From: Liolophura sinensis
Lineage: Eukaryota; Mollusca; Polyplacophora; Chitonida; Chitonidae
Assembly: GCF_032854445.1 (NCBI RefSeq)
Contig: NC_088300.1
Coordinates: 26,331,608 to 26,395,607, forward strand
Direction: 5' to 3'
Length of the DNA: 64,000 nt
Shown here in pieces: positions 12,694-63,763 of the stretch. A model generated the notes under the pieces. That model did not search any database, was not told the DNA's origin, and saw only the letters and a program-made list of their open reading frames with translations. Numbering within the stretch: position 1 is the stretch's first letter; every line of letters starts with the position of its first letter. The translations under genes were made by a program, and so were the position numbers.

Positions 12694-15600
12694 TCAAAGA
12701 GCCGTTGAGTCCGTTTTCGGGGTACTGCTGCCATTGTTTTTGGATGAGGATGACGAGAACTTCTCTCTTAACAAATTACACGTTCTCCTGTTAAGACAGA
12801 ATGCAACGAATATGAAGAGGCCCTGACAGCCGGTTAAAATGACAAACAGGTATTCCAGATAAATGGAGCCTTTGATCTCCTGGACGAAGGCGAATATCCA
12901 GGTGAATCCCATCAAGACGGACAGACGGAAGTAGATACTCACGTGACGCCTGTTCGAATTGTGCGTAGAGTTTTTCATGTTCGGTATATTTCGGATCGAC
13001 AGGACGGTTCTGATAAAGAAAAATACGTTGCAGAGTAACACAAGGCAAATCGGCGCTGAAAACGAAACGCCCTGAACGATAGGACTGAGTATGAAACAAT
13101 TTGCTCCACCGTAACCTGTTTCATTTCCACTGCTTGTTATCAAGTGATACGCCAGGCAGGCAACAACGATCGAAAGCGAAGCGAGGTTCGCTCCAAGAGA
13201 GAATCGCACAAGGGTAGTTCGCTCCGTAATACTGTGATGACGACTTGCCAAAAGATTTGTGAATACTGTGTACATATGGTAGGCGCAAATGGCCATCCAT
13301 GCAAACGTAGCCATCCAGAAGTAGTGGGTTAGGATACCCATAATCTGACAAACCACGACACTGTCTGCTACGGAATTTCCCACCAAGAAAATTAGCTGTG
13401 CCAGAAACAAATGGAATACCAAAGCCATTGTGTTCTTCCCAGGAAGTGTCCTTAACTTCGGCAATATAGAATATATCACAAAGGTTAAAAACAAGGCTAC
13501 AAGAGACACAACGGTACAAGCGAATGAGACGATCCCTAAAATCTTTCTTTCTTGGGATAACTTGGCAGAAGGGCTCCTTACTCTAGATGTGGTGTTCGCG
13601 ATGTTCGCGATCCTATCCAAAACGTCGATGCATACATTCACTTGATCTCCGCAAACATAGTAATCAGAGGTGTTTACTTGGATCGTGTTACCAGAAAAAG
13701 ATATTTCATTTCTATCTTCATCTACGGTAAACGTTGAGTGGGTCATGTTGTAGACAACGTATGGGCAGTCGAGAATCGTTTCGATGTCGGTATATTCAAT
13801 AGCTTTGAAGCATTGCACATCGCATTCTTCACTTCCATAGCGAAAGACATTGCGTTCATCCCAGAAAGATCGACGATTGCCGACAGATAAAGATGAATCG
13901 TTGGTGGTGACACGACATGCTGAGGGCTCGGGGTAGAGGGTCACAGCTGAGTTGGCCGAGTCGATTACCCATGGTTTAGTTTGCAAACTCCTCAGTCTTT
14001 GCTCAAAGAGAAGTGAACTTTTATTCGAGGATGAGACCACACGACCTTCTACAAGCAGGCTATGGAACCTTTGCTGCGCTGGCATGGCCAGTTGTTCTGA
14101 TGACTTCACGAAAACAGTCAGCGTAATCGGTACAAACACATACGGCGCATACTCGGAAATCACTTCCCGGACGAGCTGCTCATAGGTGCTGCTGATGTTT
14201 AACCAATCTAAGATGGGCTGTTCCTTACTAGTTGTCATGGTGACGCTGAATGAGTAACCCAGCCATTGGGCAGCTGAGAACCTCGGCGAGCATACGTTGT
14301 TCACCATCAGCCGTCTGTTAGAACACTCCGTCTTTTTACAAATACCCTACAAAGTATAAATGACAGAAACAAAGAAAGTTGACCTCATTGAAGATCTTTA
14401 AAAGAAATGAGATAGATGAAATGTTATTCACGTGTCGTTAAAATATAATGCTGGTGAATCCTCATCCATTCAGTGGAACGAATTGTTCAAAAATGAGCTT
14501 TCATATTTGATTATTTATTTACTTTAGCCTATTATATAAGATGCGCGCTTTCATCAAACACATTTTTACAAAGCCATTATGTAAAAATTTTCTCCCCCCG
14601 CAATCATACTCCTCACAGCACAACGCCCCTCTCTATGGTCACTTTACATCACTGTCACCACTAGACGAGCTTGACCTTTGGACCATGTGCGACACTGGTT
14701 TAGGTTTTGCTTCATCACTGGTGTACTCAAGCGAAACTACATGTATTTAATCAGCATTCATCAATTAGGTTGCTCCAGGTGTTGGTCGTAATCATGTTGT
14801 GTATACTTTAGATAAACTGAACGCGTGTGTATTAAGTATTATTATGAAAGAAGGTTGAGGCAGAGCTTCTTGTGTTTTCTGACGTCTCTTCCTTCTGCAT
14901 CACCGTGACCCCAGTGACCTCAGCTTTGTTCAAGATTTATGTACAACATTTGTTAGTGGTGGCATCGATGTAAAACGAATGTTAGAGAGCGGCGCATGGG
15001 CTGTAAGGAGTATGCGCTGGGATTCCTAGAGGTTGTCTTGGAATCTTTCCATTCACATTTTCTAAACGTTTTTATTTATTTATTTATTTATTATTTATTA
15101 TTTATTTATGTGAATTAATTAACTCTTGCACTTATACAACTTTCTAAGCGAAAGAAACTGATGTATAAAAAATAAACCATGCATTGTTGCCAGAACTAGA
15201 TTCGATCTTGCAACCTCATTTGTCATCGATCTGCTGCTAGCGAAAATAACTCTTAAGGCGACTGGGCCGAAAGGGCCATATAAACGATTTTTAGTTGATG
15301 ACTGTCAACTGTACACTAATTGGACATCAGGTAAATTGTAGCGAATGCGTTGTATCCATTGAATAGCTATTAACCGCGTTAGCCTGCAGACTAGTTTCAG
15401 CTTACGGTCCTGCTACGTTGTGAGTCCGCTTGTGACTTGACGTTGTGTAAACACTGGAGATATTTGCACTAATTCTTGTTTAACCTGACTGGTATTTTAT
15501 TCGCTTTTTAGCTTAAGCTTATTTGGACAAGCCGGGTAGAATTTGTAGGGGAAAAAACAACAGGTGTTTTCGGTTCTCGTTTTTTCTCGTTTTATCATCC

Positions 15601-21558: not shown

Positions 21559-21960
21559 CAAATACATGATGTGCTATGCTCACAATCTTCAAAGAAACTA
21601 GTCTTTTGGAACAGCGCTTCGAATTCAAGTTGTTCCATGTGCAACAGCTTAGTCTTATGTTGTAGAAGGCGGCTGTTTGTTGGAATCTATGCGTTGAAAC
21701 AGACATTCGTATGCCAGCCGTCAACCAATAAGGACGTTCCATTTCAATAATCGCAAGGCCAATTCCCAAAACGGCGTATAACACAAACCAACAAAGAAAG
21801 TACGCAAAATACCAAAATAGGACATAATCATACAAAGATAAGCAGTCAACAATTTTCACTGATGTTGAAAAGATGCAAGGTATGCTCTACGCGACTACGT
21901 GAAATCAGTATTCAATGTACCATGCTAGAATCTTATTTGAATTAGGTTACAATCGGATTG

Positions 21961-22215
21961 GGGCCTCCGTGGCTCAGTCGGTTAGCGCTCTAGCGCAGCG
22001 TAATGACCCAGGAGTTTCTCACCAATGCGGTCGCTGTGAGTTGAAGTCCAGCACATGCTGGCTTCCTCTCCGGCCGGACGTGGGAAGGTCTGCAGCAACC
22101 TGCGGATGGTCGTGGGTTTCCCCCGGGCTCTCCACCATAATGCTGGTCGCCGTCGTATAAGTGAAATATTCTTGAGTACGGCGTAAAACACCAATCAAAT
22201 AAATAAATAAATAAA
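21961..22215 (+). mobile_element. SINE-A, complete copy with TSD
   Basis: This is the reference copy of the commonest repeat here. The tRNA-like head has an A box (TGGCTCAGTCGG) and a B-box-like GTGAGTTGAAGTCC. The body carries 'gcggatggtcgtgggtttcc' and the 3' part 'gtcgtataagtgaaatattc', ending in (AAAT)n. The flanks are a 14-base direct repeat with one mismatch (TTACAATCGGATTG at 21947-21960; TTACCATCGGATTG at 22216-22229). The length of 255 bases and the intact ends indicate a fairly recent insertion. Confidence 0.9.
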
Positions 22216-23785
22216 TTACCATCGGATTGTCTGAAATGTATTTCTATCCAAAAGGATCTACCACGCCAACCGATGTTCAGTTAGCAGGGCATGTTGACCT
22301 GGAGGTGGAAACTGCAGCTGTACACGAACTGTACACGAACTATACAATGAGCTAAAGTTGACCATCAACTGTCTCTAAAAAGATCGTACGCCGGTCATTG
22401 ATCATCAAAGTGCATGGAATCAGATGTACCTTGTCTGAGGTGTTAGTCTGAAACAGGAAGGACGTCTATTTACCTTCTCGATTCAAACTATTTAAAAGTT
22501 CTATTCTCGTTAGAACCGATGGTTTTACCGGTAGTTTTTGACGTCTTTAAAACTTCGAAGACTTAAGGATTCAGTGTATACCAAACTTGTTGGTGTTATG
22601 AAGGAAAGTGAAATTTTCTGTTAGACGACATAAACAGGTGCGCTACGCTCAACGTACTAAGTATATAGTTCGGCTAAATGGGTAAAGATTGCAATGGTTG
22701 TTATACATTTAGCTGTGTAAATTGTCACTGTAAAACTATTTTAACAATTTAACAAAAGAGTGCAATACAAAGAGCAGAGTGTAAAGTCAATCGAACATTT
22801 GAACACTTTTACGTCAGATAATGGGAGATAACTCGATCAGCCACATAGTATGTATTCAATGCTGATTGAGCTAAACGCAGTGTACCTTTATGTCCATTAA
22901 TAGAACAGTAACACATACTTTTATTATTCTATAGCCATTGCAATAAGAATCTAGATTGGTAACAATGCATATAATGAGAAGTTACCAATGAATAATTACT
23001 GATGTACGAACTATGAACGAATTTTTTTGTTTTGCATTTCCTTGATGCGCATACAGCAAATTCAAACTCAGGTACAACATAATGATATGAAGTAGGATAA
23101 CAAACACTGATAGTGACTGTAGTAAAGAGGATAATTGCGTTACAGATTCAGACACAGATATTTGGATTTATTCATTTATTTATTTCGTTGATACAACTGT
23201 GACAGATATGAGACTGATCGTCAGAAGTCCTGAAAGCTCTAAAATATTCTCCATGTGGCAGAAAAAGTTTCCTAAAACCTGCGTCAATTTCAAACCTTTA
23301 AACATTAATCTGATGCCATTTAATCAGTAAGTCACGTCTTTACTTCAAGGTGGTTTACTCATGCAAGAAATTTTTAGTCAAGCAGTGAAAATGTGACCAT
23401 AACCATCTTTCAAACCTTGTTGGTGTACCTTTATATCATTCCCAGTTTGCCAGGATGATAGGGACCGATTTCAGTCACCCGAAGTCCGTATGAACCGGTA
23501 TTATGCATGGTGAACAATATTGTCAAATACATTGACTGTAAAACTGGTCTTCTCCCTATCATACCCCCCCCCCAACTCCACCGCCACTCACACACAATCT
23601 TTCTCAAAACGACTCAATGACCTCCCCCTAGGATGTCGCAATAGCAAGTCATATGAGTTGACCTGTACGCTGAATGGTTAGTTTATCAAATTACAGTATC
23701 TCTGGGTAGGGTAGCCTAGATTCTTTTCAGACTGATAGCCACAGGTACATACATACACAGACACTTCCTGAATGGAGAGCCTGTG

Positions 23786-23855: not shown

Positions 23856-26800
23856 ATGGATGACCATCAAAGTTTAACGTTGACTGGCTTTGTTTTGCTG
23901 CTATGCTTATGTAAACATATATACTGCCACCACCCATGTGCTGTAAATGATCAGTGCTCGTGTGTGACAAAAGGAGACGCCACCGACATGTACTGCGAAC
24001 TAACAGTGTCATTTCTTGAAATCCACGGCAACTTTACCGCCATTCAGACGCTGACTTTAACTTCAGGACCTGGCGTATTCCAAGCTGGGTCGAACTTCAC
24101 ATTCTTACAAGTTCGCCATCTCGTCATCACCGGTGTGTCCATTGCTGATTTGGACTGTAATATGCTAAAAGGCCTAACGGGTCTAGAATCAGTGACTATA
24201 CAATATACAAAACTGTCGGCGATACCGAAATGTGCTCTGTTACAGGCCGACAACATCACTTCGCTCAGTCTAAATCATAACTCCGTCCAAAAGCTGCATA
24301 GGCGGGCTTTCTCGGATGTTCCAACTGTTAGGCACTTAAACCTGACAGGAAACTGTCTTGTCGGACTTCAGAATGACACTTTGGAAGGAATTCAAAGGCT
24401 GGAAGTCTTGGACCTCTCAGATAACTGTATTCCCGGGAAATTTAATTCCGCTGCATTTTCCACTCAACAGAACCTTAAATGGCTAAGCCTTGCAAAAAAC
24501 AAGATTTCAGCGATACCTGAAGACCTATGGAGATACCTACCACAGCTAGAATTTGTAGATCTGAGCGAAAATGAACTATTTCATTTCGACAGCATGTTGT
24601 TTTATCCCCAAAGCACTTTTGTTATCAACTTGTCCAAAAATATGTTACAAAGTCTTCGTAATCTTCGAGTGGAATTCCAACGTCAACACAATGGATTTGC
24701 CAATTTGGCTTTATACGTGGATGCTTCTGGAAACAGTCTGACGCAGTTTGACGGAGTGGCTGTTGATGGACCTCAACAATGTGAACTCCATGTGGACATC
24801 AAAGCTGACGATAATGAAATTCCTGTGTTTGACTGGGACCCAGTGATTGGAACAGCCTGTGGGGACAACATACAGCTTCATCTTTCCATGGCCCGTAACA
24901 AGCTTGCTCAGTTTCCTCCTTGTCATTTGTCCCTTCTACACAGATTCCACTTCCAGCTGCTAAATATGTCCGGTAACTCCATAGAGGGAAAGGTGAACCA
25001 ATTATGTGGGGCTTCTGAGGTAAAAACGCTTGACTTGTCCAACAACAAGCTTTCTGAAATTGGCAAAATTGTTTCACTAGGTGGAAAATTGGAAAATCTA
25101 ATGCTGGCAGGAAATAAAATCGCACACATTGGTGAAAATGACTTTGAGGATATCAAATCAAACCTACAGGTAATCAATTTGACAAACAATTCGATCACCT
25201 CGATAACAGAGGCTATGAATCACTGTCCAAAGGCAGCCAGTATATATTTGGCACGTAATCCTTTAGACTGTGTGGTAAATAAAACTCATATTGGTGACTA
25301 CAGTAATCTTTGCGATTTCATGGACACTCTTGACGATGCCAGATGCTTATATCCTCCAAATCTACGAGCTATCCAGGTTCGGTGTGCACTGGGAGAAAAT
25401 TGCTCATCTGCGGATTTGGGTCGGTGTAGAAACGATTCATATGTAGAAGTTGATTTAAAAGCCCATCCAAACGATCGCGGCTTGAATCTTCATTGGAATT
25501 TAATTGGTCCTGGGCAGGAAAATGTAAGTCAATTCTTAATATCGGTGATTCGTCTCAGGGACAATGTCATTGTAACAAATGTATTTGTTCACAGACTTGA
25601 GCGGGACCATACTGTCTCAACTTTACATTCCGGTGAACAGTATAAGGTGTGTATCACAGTTTTCGTCAACATCGTGACATCAAAAAGATGTGTGGAAACG
25701 ATTGGGATTACATCCCCGCCACCTCCGGAGAACATTCAGCTGTGGATAATTGTGGCTATTGTTGTGTTGGGGACAATTATCGTAATCCTTGTGGTTGTAT
25801 TAAGTGTTTATGCGATGCGTCGATATCGAAATTCTCGACGGAACAGGCATCGGACTTTTCCAAAAGAACTAGACCAGTTTCCGCCAGGAAATGGAACCAT
25901 GGGCAGCACAAAAAGCAACGACTCACACCACACCGAAGTTGTTTATGCCGGATACACTCAAGGACCCAGCTGCTTGGACCATACACTTCAAACCAAAAGG
26001 AAACAAACGATTGGACATAAAAACAATAGCGAGGAAAACTCAACACACCAATACCCAGCTCTTCCCGAGTCGGGCAAGGTAGATAATGAAACTTCGGTTT
26101 ATGAGGTTCAGACACACGAAGACAAGTCTGCATTATGTGTCCAGCCTGCTGGTATTTGTACTGCCACAGAAGTCGGTGATGCTGCATCTGATGTGGTAAG
26201 TCCTTGCTCTGTGTCAAACGATGATATTGTGATGAATACAGTACTTTGTATGGGAAACAGACATGGCTACATTACCCCATCGTTCATACTGGCGCCCTGT
26301 ACCGATCCACAACATGAACCTAAATTACCGCAACATTTATCAGAAAAGGATTGTGAAATTGACGCCGAAAATCCAAATAGCCCAACGAGTAGCCTCTTTG
26401 GGTCGTCCGATGAGACCATGTCGACATTAAAACGATCAAATGATCAACCATTTTGTGCAGACATATCTGACCCACTCCGATCACAGAATCAGGTAGAAAG
26501 CCTTCATGACAGAAAGACCCTTCTGAGTGAACAAGAAGCTGTCGCATTTTACTGTCCAGAAAATGATGTGTACGGCATATCAGGTGTTCAAAACAGGAAT
26601 TCATCACAAACAGCTGGCGATACCTTCCGTTCTCTAGGAGACAATGACAATGCGATATATCTTTGCTCAATGACATTTGCGTATGAGGACATGGCTCTGC
26701 ATAGTCCTCGTCTCAACAACAAGTCGGTCTACCACAACATGCCTAACTGTAATAGTACAGGCGTTCCTAGCATCCAGGAAGTAATGCCGAAAGGGAACAG

Positions 26801-27407
26801 AGATTTAGAATGTGTTACAGAAACACATGTGGAGGAGTCGAAAAAAATCTGTCAGGATATATCTGAGATCGGCTCTACTATAGAGCTGTCGGAAATTGAC
26901 TCTAGTACGAGCTGCCATGTGGATGTGCCGAAGCACAGATGTCATGTTGCTCCTGCTTCTAACCCTAGGGTAGAGGAAACAGGAAACAACTCTGAAGACA
27001 CCCCTGTTGCTTGCACAGGTTTAAAAGTGCAGAGGAGCAATCGTAGTGTTGAATCTGTTTCCAACCCTTACGTAGAGGAACCAGAAACTATTGGTAACTT
27101 TGTGGTTGTTGCCTGCCCTCGAGCAGAACCAGAGAACACTTCTATTGTTCCACCTGTTATTCTAACGAAACAAAAGACTACACTTCAGGAAGAGAAACTG
27201 GGAGCCAGCTGTAAGCGTCAGTTTGACACTGGTTGTCGAATAGAAGACCTCAATTGTGATGAATTGTCCGTTGAAAGCACCCATCAAAGCGTGTTACATA
27301 CTCTTACACATGGATTAAGTTTTCAGAATGATTCATCTGGAGAGTCTTCCGGTTTCGTCAGTGACACTGGATTCATTAATCATGGGCATATACAAAGTGA
27401 CGCTTAG
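23856..27407 (+). CDS. LRR transmembrane receptor 1
   Basis: A single-exon frame encodes 1183 residues of a type I membrane receptor. It has a signal peptide (residues 1 to about 24), a Cys-rich N-cap (CAVNDQCSC...C) and roughly a dozen leucine-rich repeats to about residue 470. The Cys-rich C-cap includes NPLDC, LCDFMDTLDDARC and GENC. A fibronectin-III-like segment lies at about 525-620, followed by a Pro run (PPPPENIQ) and one membrane span at about 630-652. The tail of about 530 residues is Ser/Asn-rich and has no TIR or kinase domain. Tyrosine motifs in the tail include VYHNM (Y959), SVYEV and a C-terminal box ESSGFVSDTG. The architecture suggests an adhesion or recognition receptor; the ligand is unknown. 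It is the tandem paralog of the gene at 32708. There is no sign of interruption. Confidence 0.9.
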   Translation: MDDHQSLTLTGFVLLLCLCKHIYCHHPCAVNDQCSCVTKGDATDMYCELTVSFLEIHGNFTAIQTLTLTSGPGVFQAGSNFTFLQVRHLVITGVSIADLDCNMLKGLTGLESVTIQYTKLSAIPKCALLQADNITSLSLNHNSVQKLHRRAFSDVPTVRHLNLTGNCLVGLQNDTLEGIQRLEVLDLSDNCIPGKFNSAAFSTQQNLKWLSLAKNKISAIPEDLWRYLPQLEFVDLSENELFHFDSMLFYPQSTFVINLSKNMLQSLRNLRVEFQRQHNGFANLALYVDASGNSLTQFDGVAVDGPQQCELHVDIKADDNEIPVFDWDPVIGTACGDNIQLHLSMARNKLAQFPPCHLSLLHRFHFQLLNMSGNSIEGKVNQLCGASEVKTLDLSNNKLSEIGKIVSLGGKLENLMLAGNKIAHIGENDFEDIKSNLQVINLTNNSITSITEAMNHCPKAASIYLARNPLDCVVNKTHIGDYSNLCDFMDTLDDARCLYPPNLRAIQVRCALGENCSSADLGRCRNDSYVEVDLKAHPNDRGLNLHWNLIGPGQENVSQFLISVIRLRDNVIVTNVFVHRLERDHTVSTLHSGEQYKVCITVFVNIVTSKRCVETIGITSPPPPENIQLWIIVAIVVLGTIIVILVVVLSVYAMRRYRNSRRNRHRTFPKELDQFPPGNGTMGSTKSNDSHHTEVVYAGYTQGPSCLDHTLQTKRKQTIGHKNNSEENSTHQYPALPESGKVDNETSVYEVQTHEDKSALCVQPAGICTATEVGDAASDVVSPCSVSNDDIVMNTVLCMGNRHGYITPSFILAPCTDPQHEPKLPQHLSEKDCEIDAENPNSPTSSLFGSSDETMSTLKRSNDQPFCADISDPLRSQNQVESLHDRKTLLSEQEAVAFYCPENDVYGISGVQNRNSSQTAGDTFRSLGDNDNAIYLCSMTFAYEDMALHSPRLNNKSVYHNMPNCNSTGVPSIQEVMPKGNRDLECVTETHVEESKKICQDISEIGSTIELSEIDSSTSCHVDVPKHRCHVAPASNPRVEETGNNSEDTPVACTGLKVQRSNRSVESVSNPYVEEPETIGNFVVVACPRAEPENTSIVPPVILTKQKTTLQEEKLGASCKRQFDTGCRIEDLNCDELSVESTHQSVLHTLTHGLSFQNDSSGESSGFVSDTGFINHGHIQSDA

Positions 27408-27445
27408 ATTGCTGTCCGGATAGGAAAACTGGTCGTACATTTAAA

Positions 27446-27451
27446 ATTAAA
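27446..27451 (+). terminator. Possible polyadenylation signal of LRR receptor 1
   Basis: ATTAAA, a common variant signal, lies 39 bases after the stop codon. No better AATAAA is near it. Confidence 0.35.
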
Positions 27452-27549
27452 ACCGACATTAGAAAAGACTTTGTCGATCGCATTAGCGAGGACCTACGAG
27501 ATAACAATCATTTACAGTTGGTGTGTGAGGCAGATTCATCTCAGCATTT

Positions 27550-28305
27550 TGCATCCTTACATATTCATACTCTTGCTCAATTCAACATTTTCATACACTC
27601 GCGCAAATCTACATATCCATACACTCGCGTACACTCACATACCCATACATTCGCACACGCCTACATATACATACACTCGCGTACACCCACATATCCATAC
27701 ACTCGCGCACACCCACAAATCCATACACTCGCGTACACCTACATATCCATATACTGGTGGACATCTAAAATATTAATCGCGCACACCTACATACCCATAC
27801 ATTCGCGCACACCCACATATTCATACACTTGCGCACACCCACATATTCATACACTCGCGCACACCCCATATCCATACACTCGCGCACACCTACACATCCA
27901 TACACTCGCGCACATCTACATATTCATACACTCACGCAAATCTAGATATCCCTACACTCGTGGACGCCCACATATTCATACACTTGCTCACACCTACATA
28001 CCCATACACTCGCGCACACCTACATATTCATACACTCGCGGAGATCTAAAATATCCATACACTAGCGCACACCTACATATTCATACAGCGGTACACACCT
28101 TCATACCAATACACTCGTGCACACCCACATATTCATACACACGGACATACCTACATACCCATACACTTGCGCACAACCACATTTTCATACACTCGCGCAC
28201 ACCTACATATAGATACACTCGCGCACACCCACATATTCATACACTCGCGCACACCCACATACCCATACACTCGCGCACACCCACATATTCATACCTACGG
28301 GACAA
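27550..28305. repeat. 26-bp minisatellite downstream of LRR receptor 1
   Basis: Imperfect tandem units of about 26 bases read like CACACCCACATATTCATACA plus CTCGCG. The 26-base spacing is regular near the right end, with drift and partial units elsewhere. The array begins about 140 bases after the receptor's stop codon, so it may be transcribed in a long 3' UTR. It happens to lack stop codons over about 850 bases in one frame, but the repetitive His/Thr/Tyr product is not credible as a gene. Confidence 0.85.
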
Positions 28306-28309
28306 TGGT

Positions 28310-30060
28310 GTACATCTTTTAAGGACATTTATTTACGAACATTCGCCTTGTAAGGGGATATAAGTGCTTAACAGAATCCTTTGTATCGCGTACACTGTTG
28401 ATAAACCTATTTCTAACGTCTGAATGCTACACAACTCTGAGTTTTATTATTCATTACCTACGTAAACCGTATATGAACACGTCTTCACTCTTAACTGACT
28501 CACTCTTAACTCTTAATGCAAACTGCATTGCATTAAACACACTGGTGTATCTGTCCTTGACAATCGACCTCATTTCACCAAGACGTCTGTGACAGAGGGC
28601 AAGCCTGACTGGTCTGATATGTTGTCATAATGAGTTGTTTCATCTTCACTTTAGAGGTGTACGGGTGTGCGGCTTCCAATCGGTCTGTACACTCGATTTT
28701 AGCATTCTCTTCAGAACAAATGTTTAACAACATGACAATGGTACAGTCGTGGTTGGAGTGTTGTTTGTATGTCAAGACAAAAAAATGTATAACGGTAACC
28801 TGCTTCATGGCATTTGGTAGAGTTGGTGAAAATATATTTCTTCCTGCCAGTATTATATAGAAAGAGTTACAACATTGTCACTATATTCATTGCAATCTTA
28901 GAGTTTTATATATTAAGTGAGCAGTGAGCAGCAAAGTAGAAAACTGAATTAATTATGCTCACCTCAGAACGATCTTTTGTGTATTAAACACTACAAAATT
29001 CATCAGGAATCAGACTTGATTGATTTTGAAATGTTATATGTTTTGAACATATTACAAGGTGTACACTATTTGTGGCTGAAATTAACAGTCTTTACTGTCA
29101 CTGTTTCATAAATTGCACTTTTTGACTGCATAAATGACACAAAAATTCTATGAATAATAATTAAATGTGAAGTTCCTTACAGTGATATAGGAGGCCAAGG
29201 TTAAAATCGCAATAACAGCGATAGCCGTTAATCGCTCCACAGAACATATAACTGTTAAGCTAACTTCACTTCACTCTCAAAGAACGATAAATTATTTCAA
29301 ATCAGCGCGTTAAACTATTTACACATAAGTGATGTGTACGTAAGCATAGCGACATTTACCCAACGAAAAGGCTTTTGTTCATATTTATTTATTTGTTTAC
29401 TTATTTGGTGTTTTACGCCGTACTCAAGAATATATCACTTCTGCGACGGCGGCCAGGAGGAAACGGGCAGAGCCCGGGGTAAACCCACGACCATCCGCAG
29501 GTTGCTGGAAGACCTTCCCATTTGCGGCCTCAGAAGAAGCGAGCATGAGCTGGACTTGAACTCACAGCGACTGCATTGACTTCTGGGTCATTGCGTCGCG
29601 CTGGAACACATAACCGCCGTAAAAATGTACAAGCGAGGTTTTAACTGAACGCACTCGTTGTATATTATTGCCAGTTGTATTATCTGTCTTTTTTGTTCAC
29701 ATATATGTGTTGAACTTATTCAAGCGTCTTCGTGTTTCTTTATTTGATCTTTTGTAAGGCCTATCGCTGATCCCTGAGAGTTGAGCAAGCTAGTCGTTTC
29801 GCATCTTTACTCTCCGATAGTGGTACCCTTACACACCTTATAAACTCCAACATGAATTCGGCCGAGTGTATTCACGCTACCAAGAGTATTCTATAATAAA
29901 ACCAATACCTTTGTGCCAAATTTGATTTACTGTTGCATCCATCCTCGAAAATTGACTTTTTTTTACCAAAAAGTCAGTTAAATGGATGGCATGACATCGG
30001 TTGCAAGTTGTAATGGTCCTTGCTTAGTTATCATAGTACCATGTATAGTTACTCATGGGG
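28310..30060. other. Intergenic region between the LRR paralogs
   Basis: No exon is recognised. It contains one SINE-A copy at 29382-29609 and a short imperfect inverted repeat at about 29955-29975 (GACTTTTTTTTACC against AAAAAGTC). Confidence 0.5.
29382..29609 (-). mobile_element. SINE-A copy
   Basis: In minus orientation it has a reversed (AAAT)-type tail (TTTATTTATTTG) and then 'ggtgttttacgccgtactcaag', 'gcgacggcggccagg', 'aaacccacgaccatccgcagg' and 'gagctggacttgaactcac'. It breaks off within the tRNA head (TTGCGTCGCGCTGG). It is moderately diverged. Confidence 0.75.
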
Positions 30061-30065
30061 ACTTT

Positions 30066-30585
30066 TTAAGGGGAATTACCTGCAAATTTTACATGCTCTG
30101 AAACTGAAAATACACCGGTTCAATAATTATATATTTTCTACACACTAAAGACTTGGAAGAGAACCCATGTACCCTAGTGATACATTGTCTCTCTTCAGAC
30201 CATTAGCTCTTGACAAATGATGTAATAATTTACATCATTTTTAAGGGGAATTACCTGCAAATTTTACATGCTCTGAAACTGAAAATACACCGGTTCAATA
30301 ATTATATATTTTCTACACACTAAAGACTTGGAAGAGAACCCATGTACCCTAGTGATACATTGTCTCTCTTCAGACCATTAGCTCTTGACAAATGATGTAA
30401 TAATTTACATCATTTTTAAGGGGAATTACCTGCAAATTTTTCATGCTCTGAAACTGAAAATACACCGGCTCAATAATTATATATTTTCTACACACTAAAG
30501 ACTTGGAAGAGAACCCATGTACCCTAGTGATACATTGTCTCTCTTCAGACCATTAGCTCTTGACAAATGATGTAATAATTTACAG
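30066..30585. repeat. 175-bp tandem repeat, three copies
   Basis: Three head-to-tail copies of a 175-base unit start at about 30066, 30241 and 30416, each beginning TTTTAAGGGGAATTACC and ending near AATAATTTACATCA. They are almost identical; by eye only a couple of single-base changes mark the third copy (ACATGC to TCATGC, CGGTTC to CGGCTC). There is no coding capacity. Such similarity points to a very recent expansion or to an assembly duplication. Confidence 0.95.
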
Positions 30586-30929
30586 CACAGAGAATAAAAC
30601 CAGACTAGAGACGACGGTGCGATATTTAGCAAATGGTCTCATATCTTGTCAATTTACTTCAGTTCTGCTCATGTAAATGGTTTTGAAAAAAGTGTAGTAA
30701 TGATATTTGCAGTTTATTAGACGTCAGTGAGCTATAAATACTCAAAACGCTATCTTGCCATCTCATTTACCATAGAGTAACGTTAGCACAATGTCCGTGT
30801 TCGAAAACACCTTCTGCTGAATCCGTTGCGGCCTAACGTCAGGAAGTTGGTCTAGTACATGGCGAGGTGGTGTGGTTTCCTCTGATATTTGTCCGCTTTC
30901 ACAGAATAATAACAACACATTGCACAGAA

Positions 30930-31046
30930 GTCCTATGGTCGTGGGTTTCTCCCTGGCCCGGTTTCCTCCCACCATCATGCTGGCCGCCGTCGTATAAGTT
31001 GAATATTCTGGAGTACGGCGTAAAACACCAACCGAATAAAATAAAT
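30930..31046 (+). mobile_element. SINE-A 3' portion
   Basis: It contains 'ggtcgtgggtttctccctgg', 'cccggtttcctcccacc', 'atgctggccgccgtcgtata' and 'gagtacggcgtaaaacacca', with an AAT-rich tail. The preceding 150 bases are only vaguely head-like. Confidence 0.7.
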
Positions 31047-31174
31047 CGTGTAACCAAGTCATTATTCACCAATCGATGCTGTTGAAGACCTAGCTATAAC
31101 AGAATGACCATCCACCAGAATTAAGAGAGCATGGTTTTGGAGATCAGTGTGTTTAATATAAATCATTCATTGGC

Positions 31175-31930
31175 ATGTTAGTACCACACAGAATGACAGG
31201 GATCATAATTAAGCATTGTTCAGCTATCCTAGTACCACACAGAATGACAGGGATCATAATTAAGCATTGTTCAGCTATCCTAGTACCACACAGAATGACA
31301 GGGATCATAATTAAGCATTGTTCAGCCATCCTAGTACCACACAGAATGACAGGGATCATAATTAAGCATTGTTCAGCCATCCTAGTACCACACTGAATGA
31401 CAGGGATCATAATTAAGCATTGTTCAACTATCCTAGTACCACACTGAAGGACAGGGATCATAATTAAGCATTGTTCAGCTAGTACCACACTGAATGACAG
31501 GGATCATAATTAAGCATTGTTCAACTATCCTAGTACCACACTGAATGACAGGGATCATAATTAAGCATTGTTCAGCTATCCTAGTACCACACAGAATGAC
31601 AGGGATCATAATTAAGCATTGTTCAGCCATCCTAGTACCACACTGAATGACAGGGATCATAATTAAGCATTGTTCAACTATCCTAGTACCACACTGAATG
31701 ACAGGGATCATAATTAAGCATTGTTCAGCTAGTACCACACTGAATGACAGGGATCATAATTAAGCATTGTTCAACTATCCTAGTACCACACTGAATGACA
31801 GGGATCATAATTAAGCATTGTTCAGCTATCCTAGTACCACACAGAATGACAGGGATCATAATTAAGCATTGTTCAACTATCCTAGTACCACACTGAATGA
31901 CAGGGATAATAATGAAGCATTGTTCATGTA
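31175..31930. repeat. 51-bp minisatellite with higher-order structure
   Basis: About fifteen units of 51 bases begin AGTACCACAC(A/T)GAATGACAGG and end ATTGTTCA(G/A)C(T/C)ATCCT. Two units are 46 bases long, lacking ATCCT; the following units start at 31481 and 31731, exactly 250 bases apart. Units 4-8 and 9-13 carry the same order of variants, so a five-unit block has itself been duplicated. Since 51 is 17 codons, both strands show long artefactual open frames. The array ends about 780 bases upstream of LRR receptor 2. Confidence 0.95.
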
Positions 31931-32707
31931 TTCACAATATTTTCACTCCTTCATAGTCTAACCAGCACTGACTGAAGCTGTTTCAAGACCCACTTCTCTG
32001 ATTTGTTGTTGGAACGAATGGTAACAGGGAATCGCCGGAATGGCCTTTTTGGGTTAGTTACAAAATACAGCCGCTTAATAATCAGGCCCCAGGTTTACAT
32101 CTGGAGGAAATGGCAATCACTTTCTCAGATTGGCTGTTAACAAATTACAATATCTTGTCCCAAAAGCAATGGCGCTATTCAGACAACACAACTGTATTGA
32201 CTCTTGTTAGGAAGACTTACAAGTAGATATGTGGCGAATAGGTTATCATGAAGTCAGGTGACAAATTAGAATGGACTGTGTAAGAGGCGGTACATCCAAG
32301 TAGATACACGCATGTGGTTATTGTGAAGACAAATGACGAGGTGTACATATATATACGTACATATATATATATAGTCTCGGCCTATAATCATATACTTTAC
32401 ATATATCTCACAAAAGGCGTTCCGTAAACGATTGCATAAGTACCTTGGTTCTAAAAGAGGTAAACATTGACATATTCACTGCTATTTACAATATTCCCGA
32501 ACAAATACATTACGACAAAAGCCTTACCCCCAGCTCTAAGAATATCAGCTTTCATGTACACATCAGTCTTTATTCATCTGTGAAGAATACCCTAGATTCT
32601 TGTGACAAATAAGCCACGGCGACTTCTCTAATAACATATAGCAGTCAGGTGGTGAAATCGCTCACACTGTTTATCAGAGCTTTGTAAGAAAGACACGCAC
32701 TGACAGA

Positions 32708-35700
32708 ATGGATAATCGGCAATGTTTAAGAGTTGCTAGCCTTGGCTTGGTTCTGTTTTTATTCAAGGACATATACTCGAAACGCCCGTGTTCTGTAAGT
32801 GATCAATGCTCGTGTGTGACAAACGGAGACGCCACAGACATGTACTGCGAACTAACAACGTCTTTTTTTGAAATCCACGGCAACTTTACCGCCATTCAGA
32901 CGCTGACTTTAACTTCAGGACCTGGCGTATTCCAAGCTGGGTCGAAGTTCGCATTCTTACAAGTTCGCCATCTCGTCATCACCGGTGTGTCCATTGCTGA
33001 TTTGGACTGTAATATGCTAAAAGGCCTAACGGGTCTAGAATCAGTGACTATACAATATACAAAACTGTCGGCGATACCGAAATGTACTCTGTTACAGGCC
33101 GACAACATCACTTCGCTCAGTCTAAATCATAACTCCATCCAAAAACTGCATAGCCGGGCTTTCTCGGATGTTCCAACTGTTAGGCACTTAAACCTGACAG
33201 GAAACTGTCTTGTCAGACTTCAGAATGACACTTTGAAAGGAATTCAAAAGCTGGAAGTCTTGGACCTCTCAGATAACTGTATTCCCGGGAAATTTAATTC
33301 CACTGTATTTTCCACTCAACAGAACCTTAAATGGCTAAGCCTTGCAAAAAACAAGATTTCAGCGATACCTGAAGACCTATGGAGATACCTACCACAGCTA
33401 GAATTTGTAGATCTGAGCGAAAATGAACTATTTCATTTCGACAGCATGTTATTTTATCCCCAAAGCACTTTTGTTATCAACTTATCCAAAAATATGTTAC
33501 AAAGTCTTCGTAATCTTCGAGTGGAATTCCAACGTCAACACAATGGATTTGCCAATTTGGCTTTATACGTGGATGCTTCTGGAAACAGTCTGACGCAGTT
33601 TGACGGTGTGGGTGTTGATGGACCTCAACAATGTGAACTCCATGTGGACATTAAAGCTGACGATAATGAAATTCCTGTGTTTGACTGGGACCCAGTGATT
33701 GGAACAGCCTGTGGGGACAACATACAGCTTCATCTTTCCATGGCCCGTAACAAGTTTGCTCAGTTTCCTCCTTGTCATTTGTCCCTTCTACACAGATTCC
33801 ATTTCCAGCTGTTAAATATGTCGGGTAACTCCATAGGGGGAAAGGTGAACCAATTATGTGGGGCTTCTGAGGTAAAAACGCTTGACTTGTCCAACAACAA
33901 GCTTTCTGAAATTGGCAAAATTGTTTCACTAGGTGGAAAATTGGAAAATCTAATGCTGGCAGGAAATAAAATCGCACACATTGGTGAAAATGACTTCACC
34001 AGTGAGGATATCAAATCAAATTTAAAGTTGATCGATTTGAGAAGAAATTTAATAACTTCCATCACCGAGACTCTGAATCACTGTCCGAAGGTAGTGACTA
34101 TATACTTATCTCATAATCCTTTAGACTGTGAATTAAATGAAACTTACATTGGTGACTACAGTAATCTTTGCGATTTCATGGACACTCTTGACGATGCCAG
34201 ATGCTTATATCCTCCAAATCTACGAGCTATCCAGGTTCGGTGTGCACTGGGAGAAAATTGCTCATCTGCGGATATGGGTCGGTGTTGGAATGATTCGTAT
34301 GTAGAAGCTGATTTAAAAGCCCATCCAAACGATCGCGGCTTGAATCTTCATTGGAATTTAATTGGTCCTGGGCAGGAAAATGTAAGTCAATTCCTAATAT
34401 CGGTGATTCGTCTCAGGGACAATGTCATTGTAACAAATGTATTTGTTCACAGACTTGAGCGGAACCATACTGTCTCAACTTTACATTCCGGTGAACAGTA
34501 TAAGGTGTGTATCACAGTTTTCGTCAACATCGTGACATCAAAAAGATGTGTGGAAACGATTGGGATTACATCCCCGCCACCTCCGGAGAACATTCAGCAG
34601 TGGATAATTGTGACTATTGTTGTGTTGGGGACAATTATCGTAATCCTTGTGGTTGTACTAAGTTTTTATGCGATACACCGCTGTTTAAAATCTCGACAAA
34701 TGAGTAGGAATCAAACGAATCCAAAAGAACTGGCACTGGTTGCGCCCCGAAATCAAATCACGGACAAAGACTCTGTCTATGAAGACGAACCTCAAGCCCA
34801 TGTAGCATCTCGAGGATACACTGAAGGACCTAGCTGGCAGACAGTACCACCTCAGCGCTCGTCCCTGGATATTCATGAAAGAGAACAAAACAAAACGGAA
34901 CAAAATGACACCCTGAAAACAGGAACGAAAACAAATTCGCCGATACCGCGCGCTGCCCACGTTAAACTTGGTGAGGATGATGATGATATTTGTAGAGACC
35001 AGTCCTCATTATGTGATCAACCTGCCAGCATTTTTAACGAAGCTGAAACACTCAGTAAAGACTATTCCAAGCGTAGCGGTGATACAGTACCTTGCACGGG
35101 AAACAGGCAAGGCTACCTTACTCCAGCTCCCCACCAGAGAACCGCTACAAAGAGCGAGAGTGGCTTAAGAACATGTGAGACCAAGTTACCACAAGGTTTA
35201 CCAGAGAAGGACTGTGAAGTTAAGGCTGATAATCCAAGTAGTCCAACGAGTGGCTCTTCTGAGCCATCCAGTGAGACCAAATCAACATTAAAAGAATCGT
35301 CTAATCAGGGTTTGTATTGTGACATATCTGTCCCATATGCATGCCCAAGTCGTCCTAGGCTTTGTGGCAACAACAAACTGGTCTACCACAATGTGCCAGA
35401 CTCTAATAGTACATTCGTTGCGAACATTAACGGAGATGTGAAATTTGTTAGGGACACTCCTCTGGAGGAACCGCAGAAAAGCTGTGATGGAATATCTGAC
35501 AACTGCTCGCAAGAAGAGCTATCCCGAAATAATCACTGATGATATGCACTTTGGTGTTACTTCTGCTGCTGACCCTTCGGTTGATAAACTGGACAACATT
35601 TGTAATAATGATGACCAAACTTCTGTTATTGACCTTCGGGAGGAGGAATTGGATATCGGGTGTGACCTTACGACTGGTAGTGACTCTCAGATAAAAGAAT

Positions 35701-35999
35701 CGAAGGGCATTTGTGACAGTGTGTCCGTAAAGGCCACTGATAAAATCGTGCCATGCACATTTCCTAGTAATAATGTAGATAAGCCAGATGCATCGGAAAA
35801 TACGAAATTATATGCAGGTTGCTCTCAGGAGCTGGAAACAAACGATTACCAACATGCAACCACTTTCAAGCGCGATGATTTTGATCAAAACTGGAAGTTT
35901 AACATTGAGAATCCTTCATCTGACGAATCCTCCGGTTTCATCAGTGATTCAGTGGACAAATGTTGCTGTGATCAAACATATGCCTCAAGTGAAGCTTAG
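32708..35999 (+). CDS. LRR transmembrane receptor 2, frameshifted tail
   Basis: Tandem paralog of the gene at 23856 with the same plan: signal peptide, Cys N-cap, leucine-rich repeats, Cys C-cap, fibronectin-III-like segment and one membrane span (about 632-654), followed by a long tail without TIR. From about residue 33 to just past the membrane the two proteins differ by only some two dozen residues, apart from one diverged block. The tails are clearly different but alignable (GYTEGPS, VYHNV at Y893, ESSGFISD). The first frame stops at 35537-35539 after 943 residues. An extra base in the CCC at 35523-35525 separates it from a second frame that resumes similarity to copy 1 and ends at 35997-35999. 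With that base ignored the length would be about 1096. It may be a sequencing slip, a truncating allele or early decay. Confidence 0.85.
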
Positions 36000-43488: not shown

Positions 43489-46400
43489 TTAAAGGACAGG
43501 TTGGCAAAAAGATGCCTTACCATTAAGGCACCCAGATACTAAAAGACTATGGACAGGTGAGAATTTAGACGTCACCACAACATGACTGTGACACATATTT
43601 GAGGCAACCTCATACATTTTCACAGGAGCTTCAGGCACGCAGTCACACAGTTCAGCGCAGGAAGGGTTGAAGGCCAGCAATCTCACCCCCCAGCCGAAGG
43701 GGGAGCAGACCAGTCGTCCGTCAGTGCTGAAACACTGTTCCTTAATGAAACCTCTCCCGACGTTTGGTTCTTCCGCGTAGCAGATCAAACGAGGCTGATT
43801 CTCTTGTATGCGGCTTTTGTTCTTCGTTGGTGGTCCATGGTCTAGCTTCCGTTTCCGAGTGGCCTCCCTTGTCCCTCCTGTTAGCCTGAATGTCAGATAC
43901 TCCAAAGCCTGGGCTGCCTCTCTCTCCAATGCTCTTGCAGCATCAGTTCTTTGACCAGAAGGGTCCGGATTGGAGGTACTCGGTCCTGACGATGTGCCGG
44001 AAGCTGGTTCACTAGAATTGCTGTCTGGCTGGACACTCCTGTTAAGAACGAGACGTTCAGGATTCTCCTCTGAAGCGGGTATCCTGATTGTGGCTAGGTC
44101 ACGTTGACCATGGTCAGGGTGATCTGGGTGTCTTTGAGAGGGGCTTGCCCTGAAAAGCTCTTCAAATATCGCCATGTCAATCTGAACCCTACCAGAGTTT
44201 CCCTCTGGACTGTCCTCTACATCTTCCTCACCATCATCTTCTTCAGTTTCCTGCGTATCTGATACAGCTTCCTCACCACTAACGTTGGAAGAAGGCTCAT
44301 CTGAATAGTCTGCATCCTGAACGTCCCCGCCACAAGGGGAAGAGCTAGCATTGAAGCCAACCGGTCTCAGACAGGGACTTATTGCCCATCTCTGGCCCTC
44401 GGAAGATTGTGATGATGTGCGTAACCTCTTTTTTTGAAGTCCATTATCACCAACCTCCCTCGAGGTTGGATCTAGTTTCTGAATGTCGTGGACACATGTG
44501 AACTGCAAATGAACAGGAAAATATTCAAAAGGTTGACTACTTAATACAAATATTTCACTTACACCATTACAGTTTTGACAGTGGAGGAAACCCGAGTGCC
44601 CCGTGTAAAACGTGTGGCCCTGTGACAAGATACTGATGAAAATTTACATTTGTGACCCACAGACTTGTACGAACATAAGATTGTGAAAACAGCCCTTATT
44701 CTCACCAAGACTTTTATGAACAATTAAGGACAGGGAATCTACAAAATTCCTCTCCAAAGTTTGGGGTAATATTCAAAACAGGAAAGTAATTGCATCTGAT
44801 GAAGATCTTATAAAAGACATGTAATGAATACAAACCTTTAAATTGATTGATTAATTAGTGTTCAAAGCTGCCCTCAATACTTTCTAACGTATACAAATGA
44901 GGGTCAGGTGTTTGGTGGAAGATACCGGATTACACACAAGAAACCATCAACATTCGTTTTTTTAGAGGAAACCGGATTACCCAGAGTAAACCATCGACAT
45001 TCGCCAGGTAAATAATAAACCTTCTGGCTTTATGCCGCCGCTGAAACAGTGACAGATAGATTTGAACATGCGACCTCATTGATCAAAGGCCTGATATTTG
45101 CAGCAAACTAGAGCTTTAAATGTTGGAGCTAGTAATAGCTTGCATGATATAAGAGCTTGTCGATAACTACACGCAACTGTCTTAAATCCAACCATTATCT
45201 GATGATCTAAAACCCACCTCTGCCAAGGGTTGTATTGACAATGAGGTGAGTATTTTGTTTTGTCAAAATTCAAATTACTTACAATTCTTTATTTCAGTGT
45301 TGTTTAACGTCATATTTTATACTTGGAAGATAGCAGAGAGTTTCATGGCTGGAGGAAATCGGAGTGCCAGGGTAAAGCACCGAGCTTTGGTATGTGTAAG
45401 TCACTGAGACGAACTTTCCCCATGTGTGACATACAGACAATATATCTTCAACGAATGTTAGACTGCGCAAGCATCATCGATCGTGCACAGTGTCACCAAG
45501 GTCTCACATGCAAGCCGTCAGAATGCCGAAACGTGCCAAGTCCTGTTACATGTTGGTTGAGAGTGACAAACTCTCAAAAAAAAAAAGTGGTTAATACTCA
45601 TCCAGTTTGTTTGTTTCTTTGTTTGCTAATAAGAATAGGGTTTAAATTCGCTTTCAGTAATAATTTCGTCGTATCACGACAATGTCTCCTTGTAGCATAC
45701 AGGTCCTCAATGTATGCATGTATGTATACATTCTTAGGACTTAACATTTTACTTTAACAATTTATGATGACAAGGAGTTATTGCTGAGGTATGTGTACAT
45801 ATACTGTGTGGCAGGGCAAGTTCACGCCCCCTAAGTGCTGCCGCCACTGAAGTGTTCATGCCAAAGTCACTAGACACAGGGCCCAATGCTGACATTTGTT
45901 TACCTAACCCTGAGCACAAAGTGAGGCCAAAGTGGGAGGAAACCAAGCACAAACTGGGGGAAACCTATAACCCTCCGCAGGTTGCTGCAGACCTTCTCAC
46001 ATATGGTTGGAGAGGAAGCCAGTACAAACTGGACTTGAACTCACAGTGACTACATTGGTCAGTCATTGCGCTGCGCTAGTGTGCTAACCACCTTGGCCAT
46101 GGAGGCCCCCACAGAATTGTTTGTCACAGAACTGAAGAGTAAATGATCCGAACATTAGATCAACTCATCAAGTGACATCTTTCATTCATACAGTTCAAAT
46201 CCAGTGATGTGTAAAAAAAATATATAGTCTCATAAAACTTCAGATATATGGTCAGAACGCACAGAAGGTTTAAACAGTTACCTCCCCTGTTTTAACAGAT
46301 TACATAAAGTCTGCCCAGCAGAGAAACCTGTCTGGTATTGAATTTATTCCTGTTCATAAATATCCAATAACCTTTCTATATATTTATTAAACTGTTGTTT

Positions 46401-52941: not shown

Positions 52942-53219
52942 TTTGATTTATATATTTGATTGGTGTTTTAACGCCATACTCAAGAATATTTCCCTTATAT
53001 GACGACGGCAAGTATTATGGTTGGAGGGAAACCGGGCACAGAGCAGGGAAACCCACGACAATCTGCAGTTTGCTGCAGACCTTCCCCACGAGCGGCCGTC
53101 GAGGAAGCCAGCATGAGTTGGATTTGTACTCACAGATACCGCATGCGGAGAGGCTCCTTGCCCATTGCGCCACGCTGTCACGCTAACCACCTCAGCCACG
53201 GAGGCCCGCCAAATTACAG
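52942..53219 (-). mobile_element. SINE-A, near-complete copy with TSD
   Basis: It has a reversed tail, 'ttttaacgccatactcaag', 'tatgacgacggcaagtatta', 'gaaacccacgacaatctgca', 'gagttggatttgtactcac' and a full head in reverse ('accacctcagccacggaggc', 'ccgcc'). Direct repeats TTACAAATACA flank it at 52931-52941 and 53220-53230. It lies just over 200 bases upstream of the DCAF10 start codon, so it may sit in or next to the promoter. Confidence 0.8.
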
Positions 53220-56074: not shown

Positions 56075-56344
56075 TATTATTTATTATTTATTTATTTCAT
56101 TGGTGTTTCACGCCGTACTCAAGAATATTTCAGCTATACGACGGCGGCCAGCATTATGGTGGAAGGAAAATGGGCACAGCCCGGGGGAAACCCACGACCA
56201 TCCGCAGGTAGCTGAAAGACCTTCCCACTTAGGGCCGGAGAGGAAGCCAGCATGAGCTGGACTTGAACTCACAGCGAATGGTGAGAGGTTCCTGGGTCAT
56301 TACGCTGCGCTATCGCGCTAACCGACTGAGCCGCGGAGGACCCC
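56075..56344 (-). mobile_element. SINE-A, complete copy with perfect TSD
   Basis: A full-length minus-strand copy runs from the reversed (AAAT)n tail (ATTATTTATTTATTTC) through 'gtttcacgccgtactcaaga', 'cgacggcggccagcattatg', 'aaacccacgaccatccgcag' and 'gagctggacttgaactcaca' to the complete head ('gctaaccgactgagccgcgg'). Perfect 15-base direct repeats (TGAATCCTGGTTTAC) lie at 56060-56074 and 56345-56359. It is probably one of the youngest copies here. Confidence 0.92.
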
Positions 56345-59951: not shown

Positions 59952-60043
<92 letters not shown>

Positions 60044-63000: not shown

Positions 63001-63763
63001 CTCCAAAATGGTCAGCTCCGCATTACGTGACACGCCGTCGCTGAACAACAAGATAACGTCCTTGGCATTCGGGCGTTCCCCGGCTCTCTGTTGCAAGATC
63101 TCCGTTCGAACGGTGTGGAACGCTCGATCTGCCCAGGATCCGTACCCTGGCTGTGAGATGGCGTCAATGGCGTCCAAGACGTCATCTTTGCTGTCTCCGT
63201 CCTCAAGCGACAACAATACTTTTGGCAGGAGGTCAAAGGTCAGCAGGGCTACTCGTATTTTGTCCTCGTCTATTTCAAGTTCGTCGATTATTTCTTTAAT
63301 GGCCTCCTTGACTTTGCCAATTCTGGTGGTACCGATACTTGTAGAGATGTCGACCATTATAACTAAATCTCCGAATGGACCGCATGCTGAAATTTAACAC
63401 ATAATAAATCAATACCCCATGGGTAGCTTAACTGTGTTTTGGTCAGACATGTTAAAATAATGACGAGCAGGTTTACATGTTTATTTTCACACTGATTAAT
63501 AAAATATGTTTGACAATGACAAAATCTTTGAAATTCCCCAAAAAACTCAAGTCTCACATAAGGACTTTTGAAATAAACAAATCATAATGAACATCAACAT
63601 TTCGATTCCATATTTCACATTCTAGACTGTAATGAACATGTCAATTTGCCGGGGGACCAGACTTATCATGTAAGCACAATTTAAACATCGATACCATGTA
63701 ATATGAATGCTGGTGACACATACTTACCTTTAGCAAGAGGGGGGTCTATTGTTGTCTCCACAG
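57859..63763 (-). CDS. Multi-A-domain (vWA) secreted protein, 5' partial
   Basis: It encodes at least three tandem von Willebrand A domains, as in collagen-VI-like, matrilin-like or shell-matrix proteins. Exons: 63763-63728 (Pro/Thr linker), 63386-62986 and 62342-62183 (domain I), 61694-61122 (domain II), 59915-59352 (domain III), and probably 57878-57859 (VLNICY and stop). All lengths fit the phases. Domain borders are phase 1, so domains II and III are single shuffled modules, while domain I is split by a phase-0 intron. The metal site is complete in II (DASTS, Thr, VTDG). Domain I has DISTS and FSDG but lacks the usual Thr. In III it is lost (DCSDQ, FTSG). Cysteines bracket domains I and II but not III. 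If the last splice is not used, the frame would stop at 59338 after GKNE. The N-terminus lies beyond 64000. Confidence 0.85.
57990..58255 (-). mobile_element. SINE-C type copy (minus)
   Basis: It contains 'ttataaaccaccgacatttg', 'gaaagttactagcgaacttc' and 'gccacgtgtgatatatgtcg', then a reversed tRNA-like head ('agaccgggattgaacccata'). It lies in the last intron of the A-domain gene. Confidence 0.5.
58345..58570 (-). mobile_element. SINE-A copy (minus)
   Basis: It contains 'tatattcgagaatatttccc', 'gaaaccggacatagccctga', 'ggaaacgcatgacaatttgc' and 'gagttggacttaaactcaga', with traces of the head ('agaggccaaaaa'). It is diverged and lies in the last intron of the A-domain gene. Confidence 0.65.
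59916..61121 (-). other. Intron between A domains II and III
   Basis: The donor is TGCGGTG|GTACGTAC and the acceptor TTTCCTCTCAG|GA, phase 1. Apart from the compound microsatellite it holds nothing recognised; a C-rich run lies near 60335-60350. Confidence 0.75.
59957..60040. repeat. (GA)n(GT)n compound microsatellite
   Basis: About 37 bases of GA repeat are followed by about 45 bases of GT repeat, within the intron between A domains II and III. Confidence 0.95.
62701..62720. other. Perfect hairpin in intron
   Basis: TCGGCGTG, AAAA, CACGCCGA: an 8-base perfect GC-rich stem with a 4-base loop, inside the intron that splits A domain I. No function is assigned. Confidence 0.6.

Follow-up and report, generated by a model that had tools for sequence, protein, structure and literature searches.

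How can two neighboring genes be almost identical over one part of their length and only distantly alike over the rest? The question is raised by a tandem pair of leucine-rich repeat (LRR) receptor genes in the chiton Liolophura sinensis, which lie on one stretch of 64,000 nucleotides (C6:26331608-26395607 of an assembly with 609 Mb in 632 contigs), referred to here as the window and numbered from its first nucleotide. A sequence-only reading of this DNA had described near-identity from about residue 33 to just past the membrane span, with sharp switches to diverged sequence on both sides, and had proposed that gene conversion keeps one sensor homogeneous while two signaling tails evolve separately. 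The pattern of silent substitutions makes it very probable that an old duplication was followed by recent interlocus gene conversion, which would have spared an island within the near-identical part. The two genes, spaced about 8.85 kb apart on the same strand, are:

23856..27407, forward strand: gene 1, single-exon LRR receptor of 1183 amino acids (open reading frame, ORF, call; Pfam LRR_8 3.9e-32; hydropathy)
32708..35539, forward strand: gene 2, tandem paralog, single-exon LRR receptor with an ORF of 943 amino acids (ORF call; Pfam LRR_8 1e-31)

Silent (dS) and replacement (dN) divergence was computed by segment on a codon alignment (Nei-Gojobori counts with bootstrap ranges), and the borders were set by a two-state (two-rate) hidden Markov model (HMM) that skipped gapped columns. 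This model raised the log likelihood from -1212 to -909, a gain of 303 over one rate, and placed edges at 23949, 25162, 25291, and 25815. The resulting segments are as follows:

23856..23948, forward strand: gene 1, signal peptide and start of the mature protein (codons 1-31), presumably unconverted, dS 1.18 (HMM, dS)
32708..32800, forward strand: gene 2, signal peptide and start of the mature protein, presumably unconverted (HMM, dS)
23949..25161, forward strand: gene 1, probable conversion tract 1 (codons 32-435/436), dS 0.046 (HMM, dS)
32801..34019, forward strand: gene 2, probable conversion tract 1 (coordinates transferred from gene 1 via the codon alignment)
25162..25290, forward strand: gene 1, presumably unconverted island (codons 436-478; last LRR and start of the cap), dS 1.12 (HMM, dS)
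34020..34148, forward strand: gene 2, presumably unconverted island (codon alignment, HMM, dS)
25291..25814, forward strand: gene 1, probable conversion tract 2 (codons 479-653; rest of the cap, FN3-like stretch, membrane span), dS 0.042
34149..34672, forward strand: gene 2, probable conversion tract 2 (HMM, dS)
25815..27407, forward strand: gene 1, cytoplasmic tail, presumably unconverted, dS 0.92, dN 0.51 (267 alignable codons)
34673..35539, forward strand: gene 2, cytoplasmic tail to the stop codon, presumably unconverted (codon alignment, dS)

Divergence is thus far from uniform, as had been supposed: along the pair dS runs from 1.18 through 0.046, 1.12, and 0.042 to 0.92, the last value covering codons 654-1010 (267 alignable), and ectodomain and tail are anything but equal (0.046 and 0.042 versus 0.92). 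The bootstrap ranges of the tracts (upper limits 0.075 and 0.086) do not overlap those of the other segments (lower limits 0.46, 0.52, and 0.69). Earlier borders set by hand gave a dS of 0.83 for the island (431-480) and 1.00 for the tail. The two tracts add up to about 1.74 kb and take in the membrane span and the greater part of the mature ectodomain; the genes differ by 29 substitutions in tract 1 and 12 in tract 2, and amino acid identity is 388/404 and 168/175 (96%) in the tracts and 26/43 (60%) in the island. The near-identity described before therefore holds for most of the ectodomain and the span, but it is interrupted by the 43-codon island (25162-25290 / 34020-34148). Sharp switches were found at about codon 32 and about codon 654, the latter at VLSVYAMRRY/VLSFYAIHRC, just as the sequence-only reading had placed them. 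DNA identity in steps of 100 alignment columns is 33-55% upstream (chance level), 83% in the signal region, and then 96-100%; it falls to 81-84% near 25.1-25.3 kb, returns to 94-100%, and after about 25.81 kb is 55-70% with gaps and lower farther on. The longest identical run between the genes is 159 nt, a length reached in 0/5000 permutations (largest 73), and among the four-fold sites (n = 302) up to 103 in succession are unchanged, which 0/20000 permutations matched (largest 88). The mosaic pattern is far beyond chance, and these run-length tests, together with the two-rate gain, exclude the chance and plain-duplication readings.

Judging from silent sites near saturation (dS about 1), gene 1 and gene 2 are old tandem duplicates. 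Outside the tracts, DNA identity amounts to 66% for the signal part; within the first 147 tail codons, which align with gaps, it is first 56% and then 50%; farther along the tail, aligned blocks are at 66-71%. The blastn alignment of the genes begins just 8 bp upstream of the start codon, and homology just past the stop is weak, as expected for an old duplicate. Silent rates were also compared by Fisher tests, for which the segment borders were set by hand slightly wider than those of the HMM. The tracts do not differ from each other (12/269 versus 5/121 silent changes, P = 1.0), nor does the island (P = 0.70) or the signal peptide (P = 0.81) differ from the tail, whereas the island differs strongly from the tracts (P = 1e-11). 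Silent changes are evenly spread within tract 1 (Kolmogorov-Smirnov P = 0.64), and biased conversion is not indicated by the GC content of third codon positions, which is 0.43/0.42 and 0.38/0.39 for the two tracts and 0.37/0.39 for the tail.

We propose that an old tandem duplication gave rise to gene 1 and gene 2 and that, much later, at some 4-5% of the silent distance of the duplication, interlocus gene conversion copied both tracts from one gene to the other. Either a single event with patchy repair or two events separated by little time may have done this, and the outer edges would sit where homology was already poor. Since the tracts are equal in age and the age of the island matches that of the tail, one recent bout suffices and no continuing homogenization is needed. 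Thus, the segment values give strong support to the earlier inference of gene conversion, but the companion idea, that of a sensor kept uniform by conversion through time, does not follow from them. On the one hand, homology is lost where the edges lie, and their placement can be explained without selection. On the other hand, they are also close to domain borders, and selection may therefore have played a part.

Several points weigh against this course of events. Conversion between sequences that are about 74% identical is mechanistically hard, and if the entire ectodomain had diverged as far as the island, so poor a substrate would leave room for earlier rounds of conversion; the ectodomain may also have been more conserved at the time. 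When the nearest paralogs (L023 and L024 at C6:36.28 and 36.30 Mb, 42% identical to the gene 1 ectodomain query) serve as the outgroup, 13 of the 16 amino acid differences in tract 1 match neither outgroup state and 3 favor gene 1 as the unchanged copy; donor and recipient are not distinguishable with an outgroup this distant. Furthermore, the mosaic rests on one assembly. As a separate matter, an excess of replacements at the N-terminal end of tract 1 (codons 32-200: 14/17 replacements versus 4/12 silent changes, Fisher P = 0.018; dN/dS ratio, omega, 1.11) was rejected, because the split had been chosen post hoc and a scan of all splits gave 581/2000 permutations.

The alternative that survives best is compatible with the proposed duplication and conversion: in paired receptors, recurrent selected conversion would homogenize the binding part, and selection would keep the tails and the island different. 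The edges do lie close to domain borders (signal peptide, membrane/cytosol), the island and the tail are old and the remainder between them is young, and a 74% identical pair would be a poor substrate for a first conversion so late. Vertebrate cases behave in this way (PMC2077338, PMC5701461). However, a single age layer is visible, the coincidence of the edges with loss of homology makes selection unneeded, the frame change described below cuts the gene 2 tail, and none of the control pairs extending into the tail, the closest pair among them, has this pattern. We consider recurrent homogenization possible but unlikely.

These controls come from a protein search of the same assembly with the gene 1 ectodomain as query (E <= 1e-10), in which the best 73 of 278 candidates were scored, so that weaker members may be missed. 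It gave 21 matches: the two window genes, the L023/L024 pair, and 17 others at 26-37% identity, many of them clustered on C2, C7, and C8. The 19 matches outside the window correspond to 18 genes or regions (L006 and L021 coincide), from which 19 ORFs were kept. Besides gene 1/gene 2, 12 pair comparisons were aligned, one of them gene 1/L023; L025, L028 (two broken ORFs), L029, L035, and L038 were left out. Heterogeneity of silent divergence was tested with 1000 permutations in 10 pairs including gene 1/gene 2, a set that omits L027/L034 (saturated), L026/L033, and gene 1/L023. Two pairs exceeded all permutations, namely gene 1/gene 2 (statistic 188.9, permutation maximum 52.4) and L032/L039 (56.7, maximum 50.9); L030/L040 was borderline (47/1000), and the other seven were uniform. 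By location, the C2 cluster was uniform, as were two of the three C8 comparisons, the third being borderline (47/1000). A close ectodomain with a diverged tail was seen in none of the nine controls, six of which have ORFs reaching the tail; the three with L030 or L033 end before the membrane span, which was found in neither of these ORFs (740 and 750 amino acids). The control set is thin: besides these tail-less controls, some genes recur across the C2 and C8 comparisons, which are thus not independent, and a long tail is present in L023/L024 only. As far as tested, the tail-diverged mosaic does not appear to be a rule of the family.

The L023/L024 pair resembles the window pair in that both consist of tandem single-exon LRR receptors with one span and a long tail, but it is young throughout, flanks and tail included, and shows no mosaic (dS 0.015 in the ectodomain, 0.023 in the span and tail). 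Its similarity of about 98% extends into the flanks and thus points to a recent segmental duplication. Repeats in its tail (NENATDEIPEIYDDMC...) differ in copy number between the two genes. L032/L039 (C7:30.82 and 30.85 Mb) is a tandem LRR pair with heterogeneous silent divergence and a diverged upstream flank; dS is 0.76 in codons 1-40, 0.19 in codons 41-240, 0.16 in a bump at codons 561-640, and 0.08 in the last 86 codons. We rejected it as an instance of the same mosaic, as it is old at the 5' end and upstream only; perhaps it reflects conversion, or else a duplication whose breakpoint lay at the 5' end. Single-ORF LRR receptors are clustered at C2:15.02-15.18 Mb and C8:0.92-0.98 Mb, with 93-98% identity in the pairs compared, and L028, L030, and L033 are shortened or broken ORFs in these clusters.

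The island comprises 43 codons (about 130 bp), with 16 silent changes in 27.5 sites and a DNA identity of 74% between the genes, and an LRR pattern scan places it at the last LRR and the start of the C-terminal cap. Just upstream, codons 430-431 hold a two-codon length difference and one silent change, and the island may start there, since the HMM skipped gapped columns. From gene 1 to gene 2, LQVINLTNN changes to LKLIDLRRN and SIYLARNP to TIYLSHNP, so that variable LRR-strand positions differ between the genes; gene 2 lacks the two N-glycosylation sequons that gene 1 has at residues 441 and 444. As the divergence falls on surface residues and glycosylation sites, the sensor would not be wholly shared, and the notion of one sensor is doubtful, since the island alters the last LRR.

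An old island within a young tract could also be accounted for by one continuous converted tract, if sequence from a third paralog subsequently overwrote the island of one of the two genes. However, no third close copy was found among the best 73 of 278 scored places, where the next best match has 42% identity, nor was a third paralog found within the window (best E 1.4). Moreover, the outgroup pair is equidistant from both island versions (17/43 and 18/43), and under such an overwrite the equal age of island and tail (P = 0.70) would be a coincidence. With both versions equidistant and no other close copy found, a foreign donor of the island is unlikely, and we regard this explanation as improbable.

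In the aligned tails, dN is 0.51 and omega is 0.55. Several blocks are kept alike (GYT.GPS, GNR.GY.TP, KLPQ.L.EKDCE, NP.SPTS, and NNK.VYHN.P..NST), and a motif pattern scan found VYHN, which we take to resemble a Grb2 SH2 site, in both tails and FAYEDM (YEDM) in gene 1 only. The pattern of the immunoreceptor tyrosine-based inhibitory motif fits one site in gene 2, LVYHNV (pattern scan only), and there is no clear opposition between the tails. Two different outputs may exist; the tails, however, share several motifs, and, as a caution, the gene 2 tail is shortened by a frame change. Within 35500-35999, the reading frame of this tail changes relative to gene 1. It had been overlooked that the gene 2 ORF stops at 35539 and that another frame is open to 35999:

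35540..35999, forward strand: apparent remainder of the former gene 2 tail, with an open frame other than that of the ORF (ORF call, alignment, shuffles)

The other two frames of this remainder contain 27 and 3 stops, and 0/5000 dinucleotide shuffles were stop-free. Its last residues, ESSGFISDS, and the stop codon behind them align with the end of gene 1 (ESSGF(V/I)SD). Because the remainder is still open and its end is conserved, the frame change would be either a recent event or an assembly error.

This one frame change could also be taken as a trace of an assembly artefact, with haplotypes or paralogs blended during contig building, and a silent divergence of about 4%, as in the tracts, is about what separates alleles in some outbred animals. 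Such blending, however, would have required four switches, of which two lie 130 bp from each other where the sequences are about 74% alike; 29 and 12 substitutions still separate the genes within the tracts; and a stretch of 1001 bases from the gene 1 tail is present only once in the assembly. It is very improbable that the mosaic arose in this way. Finally, tails do evolve faster at the protein level: in L023/L024, replacement sites changed at 23/960 in the span and tail versus 8/1402 in the ectodomain, with similar silent rates (6/267 and 6/410), so that part of the tail contrast in the window pair is ordinary. Nevertheless, the view that no conversion took place and the ectodomain is merely more conserved has next to no chance and, barring extreme selection on silent sites, is refuted by the silent rates: that of the tail is about 20-fold that of the tract, and the contrast recurs at the island.

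Gene 1 consists of a signal peptide, LRRs, an FN3-like stretch, one membrane span, and a tail of about 530 amino acids. The LRR array was found in both genes by Pfam and by the LRR pattern scan and, for gene 1, in matches to PDB, the best of which are other LRR ectodomains (e.g., IGFALS, LGR4, TLR13, LRRC32, and TLR3). The Pfam fn3 match is weak and below the curated cut-off (E 0.013 in gene 1, 0.0041 in gene 2), and the PDB search with gene 1 gave no FN3 match at E <= 1. Hydropathy indicates a single membrane span at about residues 629-655, the only other hydrophobic stretch being the signal region of gene 1. At E <= 1, Pfam detected no TIR domain in either ORF or in the other-frame tail of gene 2, and no kinase domain is in the Pfam table of the two ORFs. 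An AlphaFold2 model of the ectodomain, built from a two-row alignment, was discarded and not used (predicted local distance difference test score, pLDDT, 36; predicted template modeling score, pTM, 0.33).

Between the two genes lie three tandem-repeat arrays, at 27558-28294, 30063-30584, and 31179-31926, with periods of 26/52/78, 175, and 51/250, respectively. A dispersed repeat of up to about 260 bp, with GGCGTAAAACACCAA-like sequence, occurs in both orientations in at least seven places in the window (21960-22216, 29383-29616, 30935-31046, 45932-46110, 52943-53207, 56079-56343, 58339-58558, and others); we presume that it resembles the short interspersed nuclear elements of molluscs. Neighbors in the window, at 12694-14346 and 59338-63393 (both on the reverse strand), comprise a secretin-family seven-transmembrane domain (Pfam 7tm_2 4.9e-22) and at least three ORFs with VWA domains.

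A broader claim would be that the pair is an invertebrate LRR paired-receptor system, in which recurrent selected conversion keeps most of the sensor and the span common and selection protects the 43-residue patch and the two tails; we hold this to be doubtful. If it were true, two receptors would detect almost the same signal, with tuning by a single surface, and would respond to it in different ways. The paired-receptor principle is known from vertebrate receptors, and if homogenization were recurrent, it would be extended to an invertebrate LRR family, and the spared patch would be marked as a functional difference between the two sensors. Even as the product of a single event, the locus is a clean example, whose two tracts, spared patch, and in-genome outgroup pair permit dating and testing.

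Among known systems, an invertebrate or molluscan LRR-receptor counterpart was not found by title and start of abstract among the matches listed, a scope that excludes most subscription journals, and a mosaic of this kind is absent from the passages of PMC10199209 and PMC10875847 on LRR receptors of amphioxus and snails. According to these passages, conversion contributes to change in the snail FREPs, an immune family of invertebrates (PMC10875847), and in the lamprey VLRs, which are LRR receptors (PMC10199209); in both it diversifies, whereas in the window pair it would have made two genes alike. Paired receptors of the CEACAM1/CEACAM3 type have similar ligand-binding regions and opposing cytoplasmic domains (PMC5112662, PMC2832619), but they differ from the window pair in being vertebrate members of the Ig family with known opposing motifs. 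PILRA/PILRB and CD97/EMR2, cited as similar to TLR1/TLR6 (PMC2077338), share with the proposed case a common sensing part and a different signaling part shaped by conversion, although they belong to other protein families, and CD97/EMR2 has been maintained since early mammals. TLR1 and TLR6 are themselves tandem LRR receptors with a conversion-homogenized block and sharp edges; that block comprises the last LRRs, the cap, the membrane span, and most of the TIR domain, and its edges are conserved (PMC2077338). There, the N-terminal part diverges, whereas in the window pair it is the tail, in which Pfam finds no TIR domain. In SIGLEC11/SIGLEC16, conversion homogenizes the ectodomain-coding region in fragments, between homologous stretches about 9 kb apart (PMC5701461). 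These genes are thus like the window pair in being neighbors about 9 kb apart, with an extracellular part homogenized in fragments and signaling parts that differ; their own features are Ig-type lectin domains, multiple exons, recurrence in several primates, and known inhibitory and activating outputs. The window pair would thus be at most a candidate paired-receptor system. Gene conversion of a known kind is strongly supported by its silent sites, and at the DNA level the pair resembles SIGLEC11/SIGLEC16 and TLR1/TLR6.

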